64,000 bases of DNA from Arthrobacter citreus. GTDB taxonomy: Bacteria; Actinomycetota; Actinomycetes; Actinomycetales; Micrococcaceae. Below, in pieces: positions 3,415-14,344 of this stretch (positions within the stretch are counted from its first letter, which is position 1; the number at the start of each line of letters is the position of its first letter). Below the pieces are notes generated by a model that was given only the letters and a program-made list of their open reading frames with translations, was not told the DNA's origin and ran no database searches. Made by a program: the position numbers and the translations under genes. Location of the stretch: NCBI RefSeq assembly GCF_038405225.1, contig NZ_CP151657.1:124001-188000 (forward strand), in the 5' to 3' direction.

Positions 3415-3957
3415 ATGAATAACAACAAGCTTAGAACAACGCTGTTGAGTGCTGCGGTTACGGTTGGTCTCGTGATGGGTGGGGCCTCAGCGGCAGCGGC
3501 GCACCCAGCTGCGCCGGAGAAGTCCGGCTCGCCCGCGGCCGGATCAGTAAACGCCGCCACCGCGAATATCTCCACGGCCGATATGGAGGATGGGCTTAAC
3601 GTCCTCATGTCTATCCCGGATGCCGTACTGATGCAGGGCGACGCGGCCACTCAGCAGTGGCTGCAGCAGAACCCGGGAGTCTCCGGTTCCAGTAACGGCG
3701 TCGCAACAATGGCCGCGGACTTCTGGGGATGCTCAGGTTCCATCGTGCTGGCGTTGGGTGGAGTGGCGCTTCCCGCCGCGAAAATCCTCAAAATCAAGAA
3801 ACTCATGAACGAGCTCGGCGGCGTGACCGAAGCGGTCAGGACAATGTGGGGCGCCAGCTTCAGCTACGAGAAGATGCAGGCAGCAGGCGGCGCCCTGGGT
3901 GCACTGGGCGCAGAGCTGCTGGGAATAGCAGGAATTAAAGAAAAGTGCTTCAACTAG
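3415..3957 (+). CDS. Small secreted protein with two cysteines, bacteriocin-like
   Basis: A 180-residue precursor starting at ATG 3415 behind GGGGGTAG. A clear Sec signal peptide (NNNKLRTT, hydrophobic core, AAAA near 26-29) is followed by a Pro/Ser/Ala linker. Next comes a segment with MQGDAATQQWLQQNP (73-87), then a hydrophobic, Gly/Ala-rich C-terminal domain from about 100 that contains the only two mature cysteines, Cys106 and Cys178. That domain alternates hydrophobic and Lys-rich patches (KILKIKKLMNELGG), as membrane-active peptides do. I do not recognise the family. A two-helix membrane protein follows 54 bp downstream, an arrangement like bacteriocin and immunity protein; this role is inference. 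Confidence 0.7.
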   Translation: MNNNKLRTTLLSAAVTVGLVMGGASAAAAHPAAPEKSGSPAAGSVNAATANISTADMEDGLNVLMSIPDAVLMQGDAATQQWLQQNPGVSGSSNGVATMAADFWGCSGSIVLALGGVALPAAKILKIKKLMNELGGVTEAVRTMWGASFSYEKMQAAGGALGALGAELLGIAGIKEKCFN

Positions 3958-4011
3958 CTTCGAATGGTTTTATGCAATAAGTTTGACTATTTTCCTCAGG
4001 AGGAAATTGTC

Positions 4012-4272
4012 GTGAAGTATATTATTCCGTCTCTCATTCTCGTCCTGGCCGTTGCCGGCATCGCCGTCTGGCTGTTCGCGGACAACCTGATGCTGGGTCT
4101 TGGCATGACGGCTGCGGCCCTTGTCCTGTGGGCAATCGCCCCAAGCACCCTGGGCCAGCCCGGAGGTTCCAGCGGGACAACAGTCAAGGTCGATCCGCAG
4201 CGGGTCAAGGATTACCGCACCGAGAACCCGGGTGCCACGATTGCTGACGGGATCCGCGCCACGCGGCCGTAG
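4012..4272 (+). CDS. Two-helix small membrane protein, putative immunity partner
   Basis: An 86-residue protein from GTG 4012, with AGGAGG at 3998-4003 giving standard spacing; the longer frame from 3964 has no such signal. Two hydrophobic segments (about 5-22 and 26-44, LMLGLGMTAAALVLWA) precede the tail DPQRVKDYR...GATIADGIRATR, which it shares with its paralog at 738. It is probably co-transcribed with the secreted protein at 3415 and is followed by a strong hairpin. A role in protecting the producer is plausible but rests on position and topology only. Confidence 0.75.
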   Translation: MKYIIPSLILVLAVAGIAVWLFADNLMLGLGMTAAALVLWAIAPSTLGQPGGSSGTTVKVDPQRVKDYRTENPGATIADGIRATRP

Positions 4273-4280
4273 ACAAATGA

Positions 4281-4335
4281 ACCACACAACTGCAGGGTGC
4301 CCATGAGGAAGACGGGCAGCCTGCAGTTGTGTGGT
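4281..4335. terminator. Hairpin terminator after the secreted/membrane pair
   Basis: ACCACACAACTGCAGG (4281-4296) pairs perfectly with CCTGCAGTTGTGTGGT (4320-4335), and GCCC/GGGC extends the stem inside. No clear T-run follows, which is common in actinobacteria. The hairpin lies 8 bp after the stop at 4272. Confidence 0.7.
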
Positions 4336-4354
4336 CTTCGGATAGGTTGTCCCC

Positions 4355-5047
4355 ATGACGGCCTTTGACGCAGTGATCTTCGACTGGAGCGGCACCCTGG
4401 TGCATGATCCGCCGCTCCGCGACCGGGTGGCAGCCGCCGGAGCGAGGCTGGGACGGCCGGATTCTCCGGAGGCGGACCGGATCTGCGACGCCCTGGCCCG
4501 GCATGAAAACGATCCGGACATCGCCGCAGCCCAGCTTGAAGCCGACACCTCCAGCGCCAAGTACTGCGCCGCCGAAACCCTGCACTTTGACCGCGCAGGC
4601 CTGGACGAGGAGCTTGCCGAAAGCCTGCTGCACGTGGATGAGGACCCCGCGTTCCGCCCGTTATATCCGGATGCGCTGCCGGCACTGCGGCGGCTGAAGG
4701 AGTTCGGGTGCCGCATCGCCGTGCTGAGTGACATTCATTTCGACATCCGTCCGCTGCTTAAGGAACAGGGCGCCGGCGACCTTATTGACGACTACGTGCT
4801 CTCCTTCGAACACGGGGTCCAAAAGCCGGATCCCCGGATCTTCGAGTTGGCGCTGGCACGCCTGGAGCTGCCGGCGCACCGGGTACTGATGGTGGGAGAC
4901 CGGTCAACGCACGACGGCGCTGCGGCGGAATGCGGCATGGCCACGCTGCTGCTTCCCCGGCTTCAGGCATTTGGCTGCCGCGGCCTGTCCATGGTCGAGA
5001 ATCTGGTCCAGGGACACGGAAACGTCCAGGGGCAGGGGCAGGGGTAG
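4355..5047 (+). CDS. HAD-superfamily hydrolase
   Basis: A 230-residue HAD phosphatase-like protein. Motif I is FDWSGTLV (nucleophile Asp10), motif II is VLSD (Ser125), motif III is Lys157 in KPDP, and motif IV is GDRSTHDGA (Asp182, Asp187). In motif I the usual second Asp is replaced by Ser12, as DWxGT in some phosphonatase-like members, so the acid/base step may differ. The segment between motifs I and II forms an alpha-helical cap. The substrate is unknown. The methyltransferase gene starts 3 bp after its stop, so the two are probably co-transcribed. Confidence 0.85.
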   Translation: MTAFDAVIFDWSGTLVHDPPLRDRVAAAGARLGRPDSPEADRICDALARHENDPDIAAAQLEADTSSAKYCAAETLHFDRAGLDEELAESLLHVDEDPAFRPLYPDALPALRRLKEFGCRIAVLSDIHFDIRPLLKEQGAGDLIDDYVLSFEHGVQKPDPRIFELALARLELPAHRVLMVGDRSTHDGAAAECGMATLLLPRLQAFGCRGLSMVENLVQGHGNVQGQGQG

Positions 5048-5050
5048 GCC

Positions 5051-5815
5051 GTGGAACCGGGGAACTACTACGCCACTCCCGAACTCGCAGCCGCGTATGA
5101 CGCAGACAGTGCGGGCCGCCGGGACCTGGACTTCCATCTGGAGCTGGCTGCCGGGTTGAACGCCGTCCGGGTTGCCGACATCGGCGCCGGAACCGGTCTG
5201 CTGTGCAGCATGCTGGCCGGAGCGGGGCACGAGGTGGCCGGTGTTGAACCGCAGCGCACCATGCTGGATATCGCCCAACGGCAGGAACACGCCGCCGCCG
5301 TTTTGTGGCTGCACGGAACGGCCGAAAGACTGCCGGCCGGATGGGCCGACCTGGTGGTGATGACGGGGCACGTCGCCCAGTACTTCCTGGATGATGCAGC
5401 GTGGGCTGAAGCGGCTGCCCACGCCAAGCGGGCCCTGAGGCCGGGCGGTCGGCTGACCTTTGAAGTGCGCAATCCCTCGGTGGAAGCCTGGCGGACCTGG
5501 CCGACGGCGGGACGGAGCTGGCCGGCCCGGAGCATGGATCGGGGTGCCGGGCCGGGGACAGGGAATGCCCCAGGGCGGGGGATAGTCAGCACGGAAGTCC
5601 GCCGCGAAGGTGACCTGATAACCCACCTTGACACTTGGACCATGGACCACAGCTCTTGGACCACAACGGAAACCCTGAGATTCCCCTCAAAGGAAGCCGT
5701 GCTGGCGGGTCTGGAATCGGCGGGGTCGACGGTGGACCGCATCTGGGGGGATTGGGACCGCAGCCCGGTAACACCTCAGTCACCGGAATGGATCTTCCTC
5801 ACCCACCCGGTTTAG
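5051..5815 (+). CDS. Class I SAM-dependent methyltransferase
   Basis: A 254-residue Rossmann-fold methyltransferase starting at GTG 5051 with AGGGG 6 bp upstream. Motif I is VADIGAGTGL (41-50), the acidic end of strand 2 is GVEP (64-67), and a later RPGGRLTFEVRNP segment matches the post-motif strand of this superfamily. It lies 3 bp behind the HAD gene, so the two may act on the same small molecule. The substrate cannot be deduced. Confidence 0.85.
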   Translation: MEPGNYYATPELAAAYDADSAGRRDLDFHLELAAGLNAVRVADIGAGTGLLCSMLAGAGHEVAGVEPQRTMLDIAQRQEHAAAVLWLHGTAERLPAGWADLVVMTGHVAQYFLDDAAWAEAAAHAKRALRPGGRLTFEVRNPSVEAWRTWPTAGRSWPARSMDRGAGPGTGNAPGRGIVSTEVRREGDLITHLDTWTMDHSSWTTTETLRFPSKEAVLAGLESAGSTVDRIWGDWDRSPVTPQSPEWIFLTHPV

Positions 5816-5856
5816 CCCGGACCGCAGCGTCTACACTGGGCTCCCTGCGCCACCAC

Positions 5857-6010
5857 TGCCGCTCTGCCGCCACCATCACAGCTGCCGCTCTGCCGCCACC
5901 ATCACAGCTGCCGCCCTGCCAATACCACCGACCGCCTGCCGATAGCACCGACCGCCTGCCGATAGCACCGACCGCCTGCCGATACCACCGACCGCCTGCC
6001 GATACCACCG
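5857..6010. repeat. Two adjoining tandem-repeat arrays (26 bp and 20 bp)
   Basis: A 26-bp unit starting TGCCGCTCTGCCGCC occurs twice (5857-5908) with a degenerate third start. It is followed by four and a half copies of a 20-bp unit (ATACCACCGACCGCCTGCCG or its ATAGCACC variant) over 5921-6010. The last half unit supplies the GGAGG that serves the ATG at 6020, so the array forms the leader of the oxidoreductase gene. Confidence 0.9.
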
Positions 6011-6019
6011 GAGGACCCC

Positions 6020-6940
6020 ATGCCCGACTACGGCCGTAACCTGTTGTTTGGTTCCTTCATAACGCCGGCAGCGTCGCCGCCGCAGCATGCCGTGGAACTG
6101 ACGGTCACCGCCGAATCTTCGGGGCTGGACCTGGCCACCTTCCAGGACCATCCGTACCAGCCGCGGTTCCTGGACACCTGGACGCTGCTCTCCTACGCCG
6201 CTGCCCGCACCGAGCGGATTACCCTGGCCACCAACGTGCTGAACCTGCCGCTGCGCCAGCCCGTTATTGTGGCCCGCAGTGCAGCCAGCCTGGATCTGCT
6301 GAGCGGCGGCCGGTTTGAACTCGGGCTCGGCGCCGGAGCGTTTTGGGATGCCATTGTGGCCGTTGGGGGAGAGCGGCTGGAACCGGGAGATGCAGTCACC
6401 GGACTTGGCGAAGCGATCCGGATCATCCGGGGCGTCTGGGACGAGGCCGGGCGCACACCGCTGCGGGTGGACGGGAAGATCCACCAGGTGCGTGGCGCCA
6501 AGCGCGGGCCGGCGCCCGCGCACGACGTCGGTATCTGGCTCGGCGCCTACAAGCCCCGCATGCTCCGGCTCACGGGGCAAACGGGTGACGGGTGGGTGCC
6601 CTCGCTGAGTTACCTGCCGGGCGGCCCCGCCGATTTGGGCCCCATGAACGAGACGATCGACGACGCCGCCACAGCGGCGGGCCGGAACCCCGCCGTCGTG
6701 CGCCGGCTGCTGAACATCAGTGGCACCTTCTCCGCCACAGGCGGTGGGCTGCTGCAGGGACCGCCGGACCAGTGGGCGAAGGAACTGGCCGCGATGGCCC
6801 TGGAACACGGCATCTCCGGCTTCCTCCTGGCGACCGACAGTGGAGAGGACCTGGCCCGGTTCGGCCAGGAGGTGGCCCCGCAGGTGCGGGAACTGGTGGC
6901 CGCTGCCCGGGGTGGAACGCCGGAGGCCGGCCAGGCATAG
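6020..6940 (+). CDS. LLM-class (luciferase-like) flavin-dependent oxidoreductase
   Basis: A 306-residue bacterial luciferase-like TIM-barrel protein. Typical features are the early GLDLATFQDHPYQPRFLDTW stretch, TERITLATNVLNLPLRQP (about 64-82), LDLLSGGRFELGLGAGAF (about 92-109) and DVGIWLGAYKPRMLRL (about 167-182). These enzymes use reduced FMN or F420; the sequence does not decide which. The start is fixed by GGAGG at 6010-6014. It converges on the exporter gene at 6972. Confidence 0.88.
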   Translation: MPDYGRNLLFGSFITPAASPPQHAVELTVTAESSGLDLATFQDHPYQPRFLDTWTLLSYAAARTERITLATNVLNLPLRQPVIVARSAASLDLLSGGRFELGLGAGAFWDAIVAVGGERLEPGDAVTGLGEAIRIIRGVWDEAGRTPLRVDGKIHQVRGAKRGPAPAHDVGIWLGAYKPRMLRLTGQTGDGWVPSLSYLPGGPADLGPMNETIDDAATAAGRNPAVVRRLLNISGTFSATGGGLLQGPPDQWAKELAAMALEHGISGFLLATDSGEDLARFGQEVAPQVRELVAAARGGTPEAGQA

Positions 6941-6956
6941 CTCGGCCGGCCTCCGG
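6920..6956. terminator. Hairpin between convergent genes
   Basis: CCGGAGGCCGGCC (6920-6932) pairs perfectly with GGCCGGCCTCCGG (6944-6956). The loop contains the stop codon of the oxidoreductase, and the exporter gene ends 16 bp further on. It is suited to terminate transcription in both directions. Confidence 0.65.
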
Positions 6957-6971
6957 CCTGCGCCGAAACCG

Positions 6972-7886
<915 letters not shown>

Positions 7887-11127: not shown

Positions 11128-11209
11128 GAAACCGGCCCGTGCCGGGCATAGCTGCGAAAACTCTCGCAAGTCCCCCAACTTTCGCAATGCCCGGCGGCGG
11201 GCCGGTTTC
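11128..11209. terminator. Long segmented hairpin after the exporter gene
   Basis: GAAACCGGCCCG (11128-11139) pairs with CGGGCCGGTTTC (11198-11209). Inside it CCGGGCAT pairs with ATGCCCGG, and TGCGAAA pairs with TTTCGCA. The result is a three-part stem of over 25 bp in total. It separates gdx from the next operon and is probably a terminator. Confidence 0.7.
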
Positions 11210-11218
11210 TCCATAATA

Positions 11219-11244
11219 CATGATCGGAACATGTTCCGATCATG
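11219..11244. promoter_or_regulatory. Perfect 26-bp palindromic operator
   Basis: CATGATCGGAACA is followed immediately by its exact reverse complement TGTTCCGATCATG. It ends 26 bp before the ImmA-type start at 11271, so it probably overlaps the promoter of the four-gene operon. The likely binder is the HTH protein encoded at the operon's end. The GAAC-N2-GTTC core has the wrong spacing for a LexA box. Confidence 0.8.
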
Positions 11245-11270
11245 AATGCAGCGGGACATCAGGTACATTG

Positions 11271-11750
11271 ATGGTTCCCATGGATGAACAGCTGCGCCGA
11301 ACCGCGAGAGACGCCTTTGACCGTCTCCGATTGCCCGAGCGCATAACCCTGGAATCGCTGATCAAGCACTTGGAAACCCTCCGCAACCGCAGAATCGTGA
11401 TTGTCGAGAGCGAAAAGCTCAACGGAAAGAAAATCTGCGGACTCTGGATTCCGCGGGAGCACGTTGACGTGGTTTATCACTCGGCAACAAAAGGAATCCT
11501 GCACCGCCAACAGCTGATTCTCCACGAGCTCTCCCACATGATCCTCCGGCATGATGAATACGAGGGCGCCACGTGGCAGGGGATAAAAATCTTCCAGGAA
11601 CTCTCCGGGGAGACGGTAACCAAAGCGTTGGCCCGCGGAGATTTCCGCTCCGACCTGGAAGCCACCGCCGAACACTTGGCTGACCTTCTGGCAGCGGCGC
11701 TGCGGGAATCCACCCAAGAGATCTTCAGATATGAGGCGTACTTCGAATGA
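11271..11750 (+). CDS. ImmA/IrrE-family metallopeptidase
   Basis: A 159-residue protein starting at ATG 11271; ATG 11280 is an alternative, and the open frame further back runs through the palindrome. The zinc motif is HELSH (His85, Glu86, His89) within LILHELSHMILRH, with an acidic C-terminal helix (EATAEHLADLLAAAL) that could give the third ligand. Family members cleave partner HTH repressors to switch gene expression. An HTH protein is encoded at the end of this operon, so it is the likely partner. The stop overlaps the next start by 4 bp (ATGA). Confidence 0.87.
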   Translation: MVPMDEQLRRTARDAFDRLRLPERITLESLIKHLETLRNRRIVIVESEKLNGKKICGLWIPREHVDVVYHSATKGILHRQQLILHELSHMILRHDEYEGATWQGIKIFQELSGETVTKALARGDFRSDLEATAEHLADLLAAALRESTQEIFRYEAYFE

Positions 11751-12745
11751 TGAACCTGCTGGTCGCGGCGTTCATGTGGCTGCTGGTCCTGACCCTGTCC
11801 CTCCGTGCCCGCGCCCGCCCGGACAACTCGATGCTGAAAGCCGCCGTGGTCATAGCGGCGTCCCTGACCACCAACATCAATGAGGTGTACCGGTGGGCTG
11901 CGGAGCTGCTGCCCTGGGCCAACGCACTGGACCTGGTCTCCAATATTCTGCTGATTACTGGCGTCTTTTACCTCTCCCGCGCCATCACCCTCGGCGCCAC
12001 GGCCGGGAGCAGCCGGGGCAGTGGAGGGGTGTGGGGGCGAGCTGGCGCGCTGGGGACCGCCGTGGTGATGGTGGTTACCTTCGCGGCAATCGACAATCCG
12101 ATGCCGTCCACAACATTCATGCTGGATTACGGCGACCAGCCCGCAGCCGCCCTGTACTCAGCCGTTCAATATGTCTACATCTTTGCCGTCATGGCGGCCA
12201 CACTCGGAACCTGCGTCCGGAACGTTCCCCACATGCGGCGCCGGCGGTTCCGGGCCGGATTCAGCATTATCGGCACGGGCTGCGGCGTGGGCCTGCTGCT
12301 GTGTGCGTCAGTGATTGTCATGGACGTCACGCATGTGACGGGGCAAGAGGGCATCATGAGGTCAGTCGGCGGCGTTTATGACGTGCTGTATCCCCTGACG
12401 GTTGTCCTGTTGTCCGTGGGCCTGGCAGTTCCTCCGCTCGGCAGGATCATCAATGACATCAGTATCAAGCGCCAGATCAGGCAGCTCGAGCCGCAGCTCA
12501 AAGCCCTCTGGACCAAAACTGCCGCCCGGACCCCCGACGTCAGCCTCATCGGAGGCACGCCGGACACAGCCCCTGCACTCCGGAAATCCGCGCGCGGCGC
12601 CACTGACGCCATCCACCGCCTGGTCATTGAGATCCATGACTGGATAGCGGTGACCGGAAACCCGGGCGCTGAATTGTCGACGGCGGATGCGGCGGCCCTG
12701 CGGGAGGCCGAGGCGCTGTGCCTGAAACAGGGGCGCATGCTTTGA
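11747..12745 (+). CDS. MAB_1171c-like polytopic membrane protein
   Basis: A 332-residue protein. Residues 1 to about 235 contain around seven hydrophobic segments, with Arg-rich loops (RARARPD, MRRRRFRAG). The last 100 residues are soluble, beginning RQIRQLEPQLKALWTKTAARTPDVSL. That layout matches the actinobacterial family annotated as MAB_1171c putative transporter, often found next to ImmA-like and XRE genes; no biochemical function is known. It overlaps the genes on both sides (4 bp and 1 bp), so translation is probably coupled. Confidence 0.82.
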   Translation: MMNLLVAAFMWLLVLTLSLRARARPDNSMLKAAVVIAASLTTNINEVYRWAAELLPWANALDLVSNILLITGVFYLSRAITLGATAGSSRGSGGVWGRAGALGTAVVMVVTFAAIDNPMPSTTFMLDYGDQPAAALYSAVQYVYIFAVMAATLGTCVRNVPHMRRRRFRAGFSIIGTGCGVGLLLCASVIVMDVTHVTGQEGIMRSVGGVYDVLYPLTVVLLSVGLAVPPLGRIINDISIKRQIRQLEPQLKALWTKTAARTPDVSLIGGTPDTAPALRKSARGATDAIHRLVIEIHDWIAVTGNPGAELSTADAAALREAEALCLKQGRML

Positions 12746-13923
12746 TGCGCCGCCTCGCTGTGCCGGCGGCAGGCGCCGTCGTCGTGCTGGGTGCCCTTGC
12801 CGCAGTGAGCGGTTCGCTGCTGCGGGCCAAAGTGACGGATGCGGGCCGGAGCCAACGGCTGATCCCGGTCCTGGGAAGCGGACAAACGGCAGGCCGGGAG
12901 TATCTGGAATTTGAGCCCGGAGGGTTTGCCGCGCACCCGGGACGGCTGAGCATGCGCGCACCGTCCGGTGGCGACCTCGTGGTGCTCGCTCCTCCCAGCG
13001 TGTCCGGCCAGCGGCTGCGTCGGACGGTGGAAAGAGGCAGCGCCTCCCATATTGCGCGCGACGGCGCGGGACAGTTGAGCGGACATCTGGGCGAAAGCCC
13101 CGCCGACTTCGGGTACCCCTATCAGGAGGTGTCGGTGGAAGGGCTCCCCGCGTGGGTGGTTCCGCCGCCTGTTCCGGCGAAATCCAGCGGGCTGTGGGTG
13201 ATCCATGTTCACGGGTTGGGCAGTTCGCGCAGCCAGTGCCTGCGTGGAGTGGAAGCCTTTGCCGGCCTCGGATTCACCTCTTTGCTGCCGTCGTACCGAA
13301 CGTCGCTGGATCTCTCGCCGGATCCGGGGCCCAGCCACTTGGGGGTCAGCGAGTGGGAGGACATTGACGCCGCGAGGCGTTACGCCCTGGACCATGGCGC
13401 GAAGCGCATTCTGTTTGTCGGGTGGTCCCTGGGCGCCTCCATCGTGCTCCGCACGATCGCCCGCGCGGGGGACAACAGCACGGCGGGAGTTGTCCTGGTG
13501 TCCCCGGCACTGGACTGGCCGGCCATTATCTCGGCACAGCTGCGGGGCATCGGCTGCCCGCGGATCATCGCCCGATTGCTGCCTCACACACTCAATCTGG
13601 TGCGTGCCAAGGGTGAGCCCGTTATCCGCTGGAAGGAGATGCCCGGGACATACATGCAAAAACATTTAACATTGCCCACTATGATTTTTCATGGGTCGGA
13701 TGATCATTCCGTGCCGGTGGAGCTCTCCCGAATACTCGTGTCCAGGCAAAAGCAGCCTGTCCGATTCGTTGAGTTTGAAGGCGCCCACCACACCTTGGAG
13801 TGGAATTCCGCTCCGGAGTTGTGGAATCAATCTGTTCAGGCCTGGTGCCGTTCCCTGGGCCTGGACGTTAGCGAAGACTTTATCGATCACCCTGTCGGAG
13901 GCGAAATAAACCATGGCCGCTGA
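12745..13923 (+). CDS. Membrane-anchored alpha/beta hydrolase
   Basis: A 392-residue protein from ATG 12745, whose A is the last base of the preceding TGA; a GTG 27 bp earlier is the alternative. A hydrophobic N-terminal helix (about 3-22, LAVPAAGAVVVLGALAAV) acts as signal or anchor. The hydrolase core has HVHGLGSS (oxyanion region), nucleophile elbow GWSLG (Ser228), acid HGSDD (Asp319/Asp320) and AHHTLEW (His348/His349). It probably works outside the membrane on an ester or amide. The substrate is unknown. Its end overlaps the HTH gene by 11 bp. Confidence 0.85.
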   Translation: MRRLAVPAAGAVVVLGALAAVSGSLLRAKVTDAGRSQRLIPVLGSGQTAGREYLEFEPGGFAAHPGRLSMRAPSGGDLVVLAPPSVSGQRLRRTVERGSASHIARDGAGQLSGHLGESPADFGYPYQEVSVEGLPAWVVPPPVPAKSSGLWVIHVHGLGSSRSQCLRGVEAFAGLGFTSLLPSYRTSLDLSPDPGPSHLGVSEWEDIDAARRYALDHGAKRILFVGWSLGASIVLRTIARAGDNSTAGVVLVSPALDWPAIISAQLRGIGCPRIIARLLPHTLNLVRAKGEPVIRWKEMPGTYMQKHLTLPTMIFHGSDDHSVPVELSRILVSRQKQPVRFVEFEGAHHTLEWNSAPELWNQSVQAWCRSLGLDVSEDFIDHPVGGEINHGR

Positions 13924-14344
13924 AAGCACTGCCCAGCGCAACCTGAGGGAATCGCAGATCCTCGCCCGCAAAATCGATCTGCTGCTCGATGTCATGGTGT
14001 CAGCCGACGGAAAGCCCTACGAGTTTCAGGACATTCAGACAGCCCTGGCCGCAAAGGGCGTAAAACTTTCCCGCACCCGCTGGCACCACATCAAGACAGG
14101 GGATACCACAGTCCGGCAGCCGGCGGAGGTGGTCATTGCCCTGGCCGAATTCTTCCAGGTCAAACCGGATTATCTCCTCGATTCCGACGGAGCGGTTCCG
14201 GAGCGGATTCAGCACGAACTCGAACTGCTGGCTGCCATGCGCCGGGCCAGGGTCAAGGAATTCGCCACGCGCACGTTAGCCGATGTGGACAATGAAACCC
14301 TTAATGCCATTGCGGCCCTTCTGGACGATTCGCAGAAATACTAA
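13913..14344 (+). CDS. EspR-like XRE-family HTH protein
   Basis: A 143-residue protein. The N-terminal half (DIQTALAAKGVKLSRTRWHHIKTGDTTVRQPAEVVIALAEFF) matches the helix-turn-helix layout of the mycobacterial EspR type. The C-terminal half (ERIQHELELLAAMRRARVKEFATRTLADV) resembles EspR's dimerisation helices. It overlaps the hydrolase gene by 11 bp, so it belongs to the same operon. The simplest model is that it binds the palindrome at 11219 and is removed by the ImmA-type protease. Both points are inference. Confidence 0.83.
   Translation: MAAESTAQRNLRESQILARKIDLLLDVMVSADGKPYEFQDIQTALAAKGVKLSRTRWHHIKTGDTTVRQPAEVVIALAEFFQVKPDYLLDSDGAVPERIQHELELLAAMRRARVKEFATRTLADVDNETLNAIAALLDDSQKY

Follow-up and report, generated by a model that had tools for sequence, protein, structure and literature searches.

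Switches built from an ImmA protease and an XRE protein are already known from conjugative elements. This study concerns a four-gene operon in a stretch of 64,000 nucleotides of the Arthrobacter citreus chromosome (contig NZ_CP151657.1, positions 124,001 to 188,000; referred to as the window), encoding an ImmA-like zinc protease, a membrane protein of the MAB_1171c (DUF6545) family, an alpha/beta hydrolase and an EspR-like helix-turn-helix (HTH) protein. On balance it is probable that this module is an ImmR/ImmA-like repressor switch, relieved by the protease and placed under a seven-helix, receptor-like membrane protein, with an exchangeable enzyme. In related bacteria the module is often found on plasmids or other mobile elements beside DNA-transfer genes, and probably lets an envelope signal turn such genes on. 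New relative to the known ImmA/XRE switches are a membrane partner resembling a receptor, an enzyme that can be exchanged, and arrays of sites facing ardC-primase genes.

In ICEBs1 of Bacillus subtilis, ImmA cleaves ImmR, and control is exerted through the cytosolic RapI and the peptide PhrI, according to a review (PMC6540685). The window module shares with ICEBs1 an XRE-type protein, an ImmA-type protease, an association with conjugative elements among its relatives and, probably, autoregulation. Unlike ICEBs1, it brings its own seven-helix membrane protein and exported enzyme, and the copy in the window lies outside any element. The BlaR1-BlaI-BlaZ and MecR1-MecI systems likewise combine a membrane sensor, a zinc protease, a repressor and an exported hydrolase in one circuit. 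In BlaR1, sensor and metalloprotease form one polypeptide, whereas in the window they are encoded by separate, overlapping genes, and the families differ. CapH-CapP, an XRE protein and an ImmA-like peptidase, regulates the anti-phage system CBASS; the window HTH protein has a weak capH match, but the module adds a membrane protein and an enzyme, and no CBASS gene is present among the genes examined. EspR of Mycobacterium tuberculosis is a nucleoid-associated protein with many sites. The HTH protein resembles it over residues 16–121, but the core site of the window has no second copy in the genome with up to two mismatches allowed. Finally, PrgY of pCF10 is membrane-bound and surface-facing and, in the same review, is proposed to lower the element's own signal (PMC6540685). 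A similar role is suggested below for the window hydrolase, which is of a different family; pCF10 uses peptide pheromones.

The open-licence PubMed Central literature yielded no description of the module (combinations of MAB_1171c, DUF6545, ImmA/XRE/EspR, CapP/CapH, Streptomyces, GPCR-like and Arthrobacter), no paper on DUF6545 and none on CapP/CapH with ImmA and peptidase.

Gene organization and predicted products

The four genes overlap successively by 4 bp (protease stop at 11750, membrane gene start at 11747), 1 bp (membrane gene stop and hydrolase ATG, both at 12745) and 11 bp (hydrolase stop at 13923, HTH start at 13913), in agreement with the preliminary description of the locus, which was made from the sequence alone. 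The gene identities proposed there are upheld, the locus encoding an HExxH protease, a MAB_1171c-family membrane protein, a serine hydrolase and an EspR-like protein (Table 1).

Table 1. Features of the operon region (positions in the window)
Feature	Position	Strand	Basis or remark
ImmA-like zinc-protease gene	11280..11750	+	HELSH motif; start ~11280 by ortholog alignment
MAB_1171c-family (DUF6545) membrane protein gene	11747..12745	+	seven helices and helical tail
alpha/beta hydrolase gene	12745..13923	+	hydrophobic N-terminal helix
EspR-like XRE/HTH DNA-binding protein gene	13913..14344	+	PDB and profile matches
perfect palindrome, putative operator of the EspR-like protein	11219..11244	no strand	sequence and conservation
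highly stable hairpin separating the palindrome from the upstream gene	11128..11209	no strand	RNA fold and conservation

In the protease, H82, E83 and H86 of the HELSH (HExxH) zinc motif, together with E127, are invariant in all 13 aligned proteins, and E127 is likely to be the third zinc ligand. The protein is termed ImmA-like because the Pfam Peptidase_M78 profile does not match it; a plasmid protein annotated as ImmA/IrrE is 47% identical to it. The catalytic residues of both the protease and the hydrolase are conserved among relatives.

The membrane protein scores 100.7 bits against NF042915 (MAB_1171c_fam), barely above the cut-off of 100. Its predicted model is one seven-helix bundle with a long helical cytoplasmic tail, and the 50 rows shown in a VIA-align comparison are all G-protein-coupled receptors (GPCRs), GPCR-domain proteins or designed GPCR-like folds; such fold similarity says nothing about function, and the absence of transporter folds from the rows shown is no evidence against transporters. 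The sole PDB match of the membrane profile by sequence, mL100 (E 0.001), was judged irrelevant.

The hydrolase matches alpha/beta hydrolase Pfam families and is likely, from its hydrophobic N-terminal helix, to be anchored on the outside of the cell. Its best named match is a protein of Arthrobacter gandavensis JCM 13316 (90%). The matches listed in a fold search include many kinds of esterase, dehalogenase and acylaminoacyl peptidase, and indicate no single substrate. The HTH protein is related to EspR in the PDB (best E 8.7e-7; 3qwg, 3r1f, 3qf3 and 4ndw at E about 1e-6, residues 15/16–121), and the similarity spans both the HTH and the region following it.

A prophage switch at this site was rejected: the PHROGs matches of the four proteins are weak, except to a general esterase family, although the search did not extend to phage genes in the rest of the window.

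Operator-like sites

The single perfect palindrome described earlier before the operon, CATGATCGGAACATGTTCCGATCATG, is confirmed at 26 bp. Mechanical prediction opens the first reading frame inside it, at 11220; alignment of orthologs moves the protease start to ~11280, so the palindrome is upstream DNA, which excludes coding sequence as its explanation. With up to three mismatches allowed, the inner 24 bp match nothing else in the window and nothing in 100 shuffles; with up to two allowed, the inner 16 bp are single-copy in the 3.88-Mb genome. The core GGAACATGTTCC is invariant in all nine genus sequences, with longer arms in some, and the module copies on the A. agilis and Citricoccus plasmids share it. 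The shuffles and the conservation in the genus rule out chance.

The palindrome is a member of a family of mostly CATG-centred, operator-like sites. Among the related loci compared (L numbers), all seven in which the HTH gene is third carry the lineage version CTCTGGACATGTCCAGAG; L176 has CGAACATGTTCG, L224 has TGAAACATGTTTCA and L178 has an ATAT-centred version, TGAAACATATGTTTCA. A CATG-centred palindrome is absent from L177, L185 and L189, and L216 has imperfect ones only. Six genus orthologs and both plasmids also have a TAnnnT hexamer 3' of the palindrome, which the window, L031 and L032 lack; this hexamer would fit repression.

The related motif TTGAGCATGCTCAA, first noticed in L041, was sought in the regions between ardC and the HTH gene at the 27 loci where both were called. 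There are 96 copies at up to three mismatches, against 0.6 expected, distributed over 26 of the 27 loci and often spaced about 45, 22 and 22 bp. A second site, directly behind the HTH gene and in front of the transfer genes, is found in six of eight transfer-type loci (zero or one mismatch in L178, L224, L255 and L256; two in L176 and L216). The L176 site is weak, since so short a motif is expected 4.9 times by chance in that locus at three mismatches. Good and poorer copies of the site lie 11 bp apart, one helical turn, in L224 (7599/7610), L255 (6432/6443 and 9604/9615) and L256 (5361/5372 and 8528/8539).

Conservation of the module and exchange of the enzyme

A close ortholog of the membrane gene is present in nine of 29 genus genomes, including that of the window, and the window gene order is kept in the other eight (L031–L038). 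In one of these, L032 (G013, 3476–7280), frame shifts, perhaps assembly errors, split the protease gene, the membrane gene and a neighbouring gene; this locus was excluded from the protein alignments. Three genomes from other genera of the family encode the membrane protein at 46%, 34% and 33% identity; in one of them, L041, the HTH gene comes first.

At the level of the class, NF042915 is present in 81 of 394 genomes, including that of the window. The best match in each of the other 80 genomes defines a class-wide locus. An ImmA-like gene adjoins the membrane gene in 79 of these 80 loci, upstream and on the same strand in 76, and an EspR-like gene lies within ~4 kb of it in 65. Gene calls in the compared loci were made with a simple script, and the profiles used to detect the families were iterated on these same loci, so that recall is partly circular.

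A same-strand gene was called directly after the membrane gene in 38 of the 80 loci. Its product falls into clusters of PAP2 (10), FAD oxidoreductase (10), amidohydrolase (3), amidase (2), P450 (2) and window-type hydrolase (2), with one MPAB/Lcp oxygenase, one methyltransferase, one short-chain dehydrogenase and six others (a second membrane gene, a membrane-gene fragment, a DUF222/HNH protein, a different esterase and two without clear family); these names are based on one or two members per cluster. One further window-type hydrolase was detected by profile only (L085). This gene content around the membrane gene shows that the core of the module is the protease and the membrane protein, usually with the HTH protein, and that the enzyme is exchangeable.

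The nature of these enzymes bears on an alternative explanation, in which the operon is a split version of BlaR1-BlaI-BlaZ: the membrane protein would detect a harmful or foreign small molecule, the protease would remove the repressor and the enzyme would destroy the molecule, with mobile elements carrying the operon as a useful trait. We regard this as rather unlikely, though it is a fair rival in view of the typical small-molecule character of the enzymes found in the slot. Such an enzyme (PAP2, FAD oxidoreductase, amidohydrolase, amidase, P450, methyltransferase and others) follows the membrane gene in 32 of the 38 loci, and the window copy is without transfer genes. However, a plain detoxification operon would have no use for the operator-like sites that face ardC-primase and transfer genes in the relatives.

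Two variants were also seen. In 13 class-wide loci (L087, L097, L110, L117, L121, L124, L131, L134, L137, L140, L149, L153 and L159) an EspR-like gene lies closely after the membrane gene on the opposite strand, with no enzyme gene between, a variant without the fourth gene. The window's own genome contains a second, diverged module at ~2.597 Mb (L042, 4630–7843), comprising a protease, a membrane protein, a PAP2-like gene and an HTH gene. The PAP2 likeness of its third gene is weak (E 0.0043 for the L043 relative; the own copy has no Pfam hit), and another PAP2-like gene (E 2e-4, below cut-off) lies just upstream of this module.

Association with mobile elements

When named genomes were scanned with the hydrolase alignment, 542 loci were obtained, of which the best 80 were kept. 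Both the protease and the membrane gene are near the hydrolase in at least 55 of these 80, a lower bound since only hits starting at 2.5–9.5 kb of each locus were counted and some loci are short (as in L181, whose membrane gene was seen only in the tree set). The order HTH–protease–membrane–hydrolase is found in 36 of the 55, the window's order in seven and the HTH gene third in seven; in one the hydrolase comes first, in one it lies on the strand opposite to the other three genes, and in three no HTH gene was detected. Co-occurrence of the families in other genomes, which the preliminary description had made a test of its own proposal, therefore holds in both the class-wide and the hydrolase sets, and recurrent linkage in the genus, class and hydrolase-locus sets rules out chance neighbours.

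Neighbouring genes were mapped in 52 of the 55 loci (L174, L185 and L189 were left out). A divergent ArdC-like gene is present in 30, a divergent primase-polymerase gene in 30 and a DUF2637 gene in 27, the first two names being based on Pfam matches of one representative each. Another group of loci adjoins a TrbC-like pilin gene and M23 or CHAP wall hydrolases. The enzyme is swapped on both backbones: with the ArdC type, the hydrolase is found in L041 and L084 and a PAP2-cluster gene in L091 and L116; with the TrbC type, the hydrolase is found in L040 and a PAP2-cluster gene in L081. In PLSDB the membrane protein matches 15 plasmids, typed as conjugative (10), non-mobilizable (4) and mobilizable (1), several of them from tobacco-root or nicotine-related Arthrobacter and Paenarthrobacter. 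The preliminary description had set a mobile-element reading aside for want of phage genes; that many relatives adjoin genes for ArdC, a primase-polymerase, a TrbC-like protein or TrwC, and that some of them are on plasmids typed as conjugative, speaks against that decision. The arrangement of ICEBs1, with XRE and ImmA-like genes on a mobile element and sites before the element's genes, is seen in many relatives and not in the window copy.

Single loci carry downstream genes for HmaA, BrxA, BrxB, type IIG restriction-modification, HKD+Snf2, a TrwC relaxase, HsdM, an Eco57I-type methylase or DUF3375. On mobile elements the position immediately after the module is a cargo hot spot, occupied by varying defence-type genes that are often preceded by a small HTH_17 gene (L192, L195, L203, L205, L207, L225, L239 and L250, at ~6.9–12 kb in each). 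The module could on this account be a regulator, or a part, of an anti-phage defence island, as CapH-CapP is of CBASS, and the weak capH match of the HTH protein (1.1e-4) among the defence profiles points the same way. We consider this improbable: the protease, the membrane protein and the hydrolase match no defence profile, the gene following one examined X-A-M-H locus (L206) is metabolic, and the repeated sites face ardC-primase genes, in a count that did not extend to sites before defence genes.

Origin of the window copy

In a FastTree phylogeny of 88 membrane proteins (midpoint root), the window group falls into one clade (support 1.0) with the plasmid copies of A. agilis and Citricoccus and the transfer-type copy of A. 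echini, and the plasmid-type branches lie inside this clade. L039 and L177 in this tree are one species on short contigs, and their chromosomal label is provisional. The simplest account is that the window module is a plasmid switch captured by the chromosome, movement in the reverse direction being a less simple alternative. The module (11201–14344) has a G+C content of 62.0%, compared with 65.4% for the window, and the protease (56.5%) and HTH (58.3%) genes are lowest. This is in keeping with a foreign origin.

The upstream hairpin

The hairpin upstream of the palindrome has an RNA fold of -53.8 kcal/mol (z -6.9) and is present as a single copy in the genome. It is conserved, at genus level only, in nine sequences with an invariant loop, AGTCCCCCAAC. 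Ten of 31 modelled pairs (those of the hairpin and six of the palindrome) are changed on both sides across the nine sequences; none of 500 shuffles reaches the observed value on four of five measures and 113 do so on the fifth, for a structure predicted from the same nine related sequences. Rfam gave no match near the gathering score at the hairpin. It may act as a terminator, encode a small RNA or bind a protein.

Proposed mechanism

The EspR-like protein would bind the CATG-centred palindrome and keep its own operon off, as the position and conservation of the site suggest. The seven-helix protein may sense something in or outside the membrane, its cytoplasmic tail then activating or releasing the ImmA-like protease. 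The protease would inactivate the EspR-like protein, as ImmA does ImmR, and so turn the operon on. Its products would include the exported hydrolase, which might alter the signal or the cell surface; this is the weakest step. On related plasmids and integrative elements, where the repeated sites are observed, this regulator probably governs transfer or replication genes as well. The chromosomal copy in the window appears to be without those targets and to keep only its own site. The membrane sensing module of the preliminary description thus survives in outline, with a conserved set of genes, a conserved operator-like palindrome, a receptor-like seven-helix model and conserved protease and hydrolase residues in its favour; the mobile-element context had been missed.

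Several results weigh against this switch. The window protease does not match the Pfam Peptidase_M78 (ImmA/IrrE) profile at E 1, none of its 13 relatives matches it at E 0.01, and a sequence search of the PDB found no relative of it; Foldseek returned nothing significant for the receptor model (best E 0.033). No sigma-70 (promoter-like) site was detected at the window operon, and 15 of the 80 class-wide loci have no EspR-like gene near. The 80 class-wide regions contain 22 perfect palindromes of at least 12 bp against 14.6 expected, one of them CATG-centred. As this is no clear enrichment, a palindrome common to the whole MAB_1171c family is not supported and the site is taken to hold for the hydrolase-type lineage, and there with the exceptions given above. 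The two plasmids nearest to the window are typed as mobilizable (A. agilis) and non-mobilizable (Citricoccus), neither being conjugative; at the second site the former has a three-mismatch copy only and the latter none. None of the mobile-gene clusters tested matches the window or L031–L039, so that a transfer role fails for the window copy, which is chromosomal and without such genes. Moreover, the scheme is built on comparison of sequences and predicted models, from which we infer the steps of binding, cleavage and expression.

The MAB_1171c protein might instead be a transporter, in an operon that takes up or exports envelope or biofilm material on which the hydrolase acts. This accords with the NF042915 name 'putative transporter' and with a Mycobacterium abscessus MAB_1171c knockout that made about half the biofilm, from which its authors inferred transport (PMC8707978), but is very improbable given the near-constant ImmA-like neighbour, odd for such a role, and a single seven-helix bundle with a long tail that gave the GPCR-type rows described above, a likeness of fold and not of function.

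The ImmR/ImmA-like switch can be extended into a more speculative scheme, which we put forward tentatively and consider rather unlikely. In conjugative elements of the Actinobacteria, a GPCR-like seven-helix receptor and an ImmA-like protease might decide on transfer, while the exported hydrolase, or a PAP2 enzyme in the same slot, might clear away the hydrophobic or envelope signal made by the element itself, leaving that of element-free neighbours as the sole trigger. Enzyme swap and receptor divergence would then give each element a private channel, and the window module, as a copy captured by the chromosome, could listen in on incoming plasmids or interfere with them.

Implications

To our knowledge, how conjugative elements of the Actinobacteria time their transfer is poorly understood. 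The module is a concrete candidate for such a controller, with a candidate membrane receptor, a protease, a DNA-binding protein and sites before element genes, and the exchangeable enzyme gives a clue to what the signal might be chemically. A candidate role also emerges for the MAB_1171c/DUF6545 family, whose present name says no more than putative transporter.

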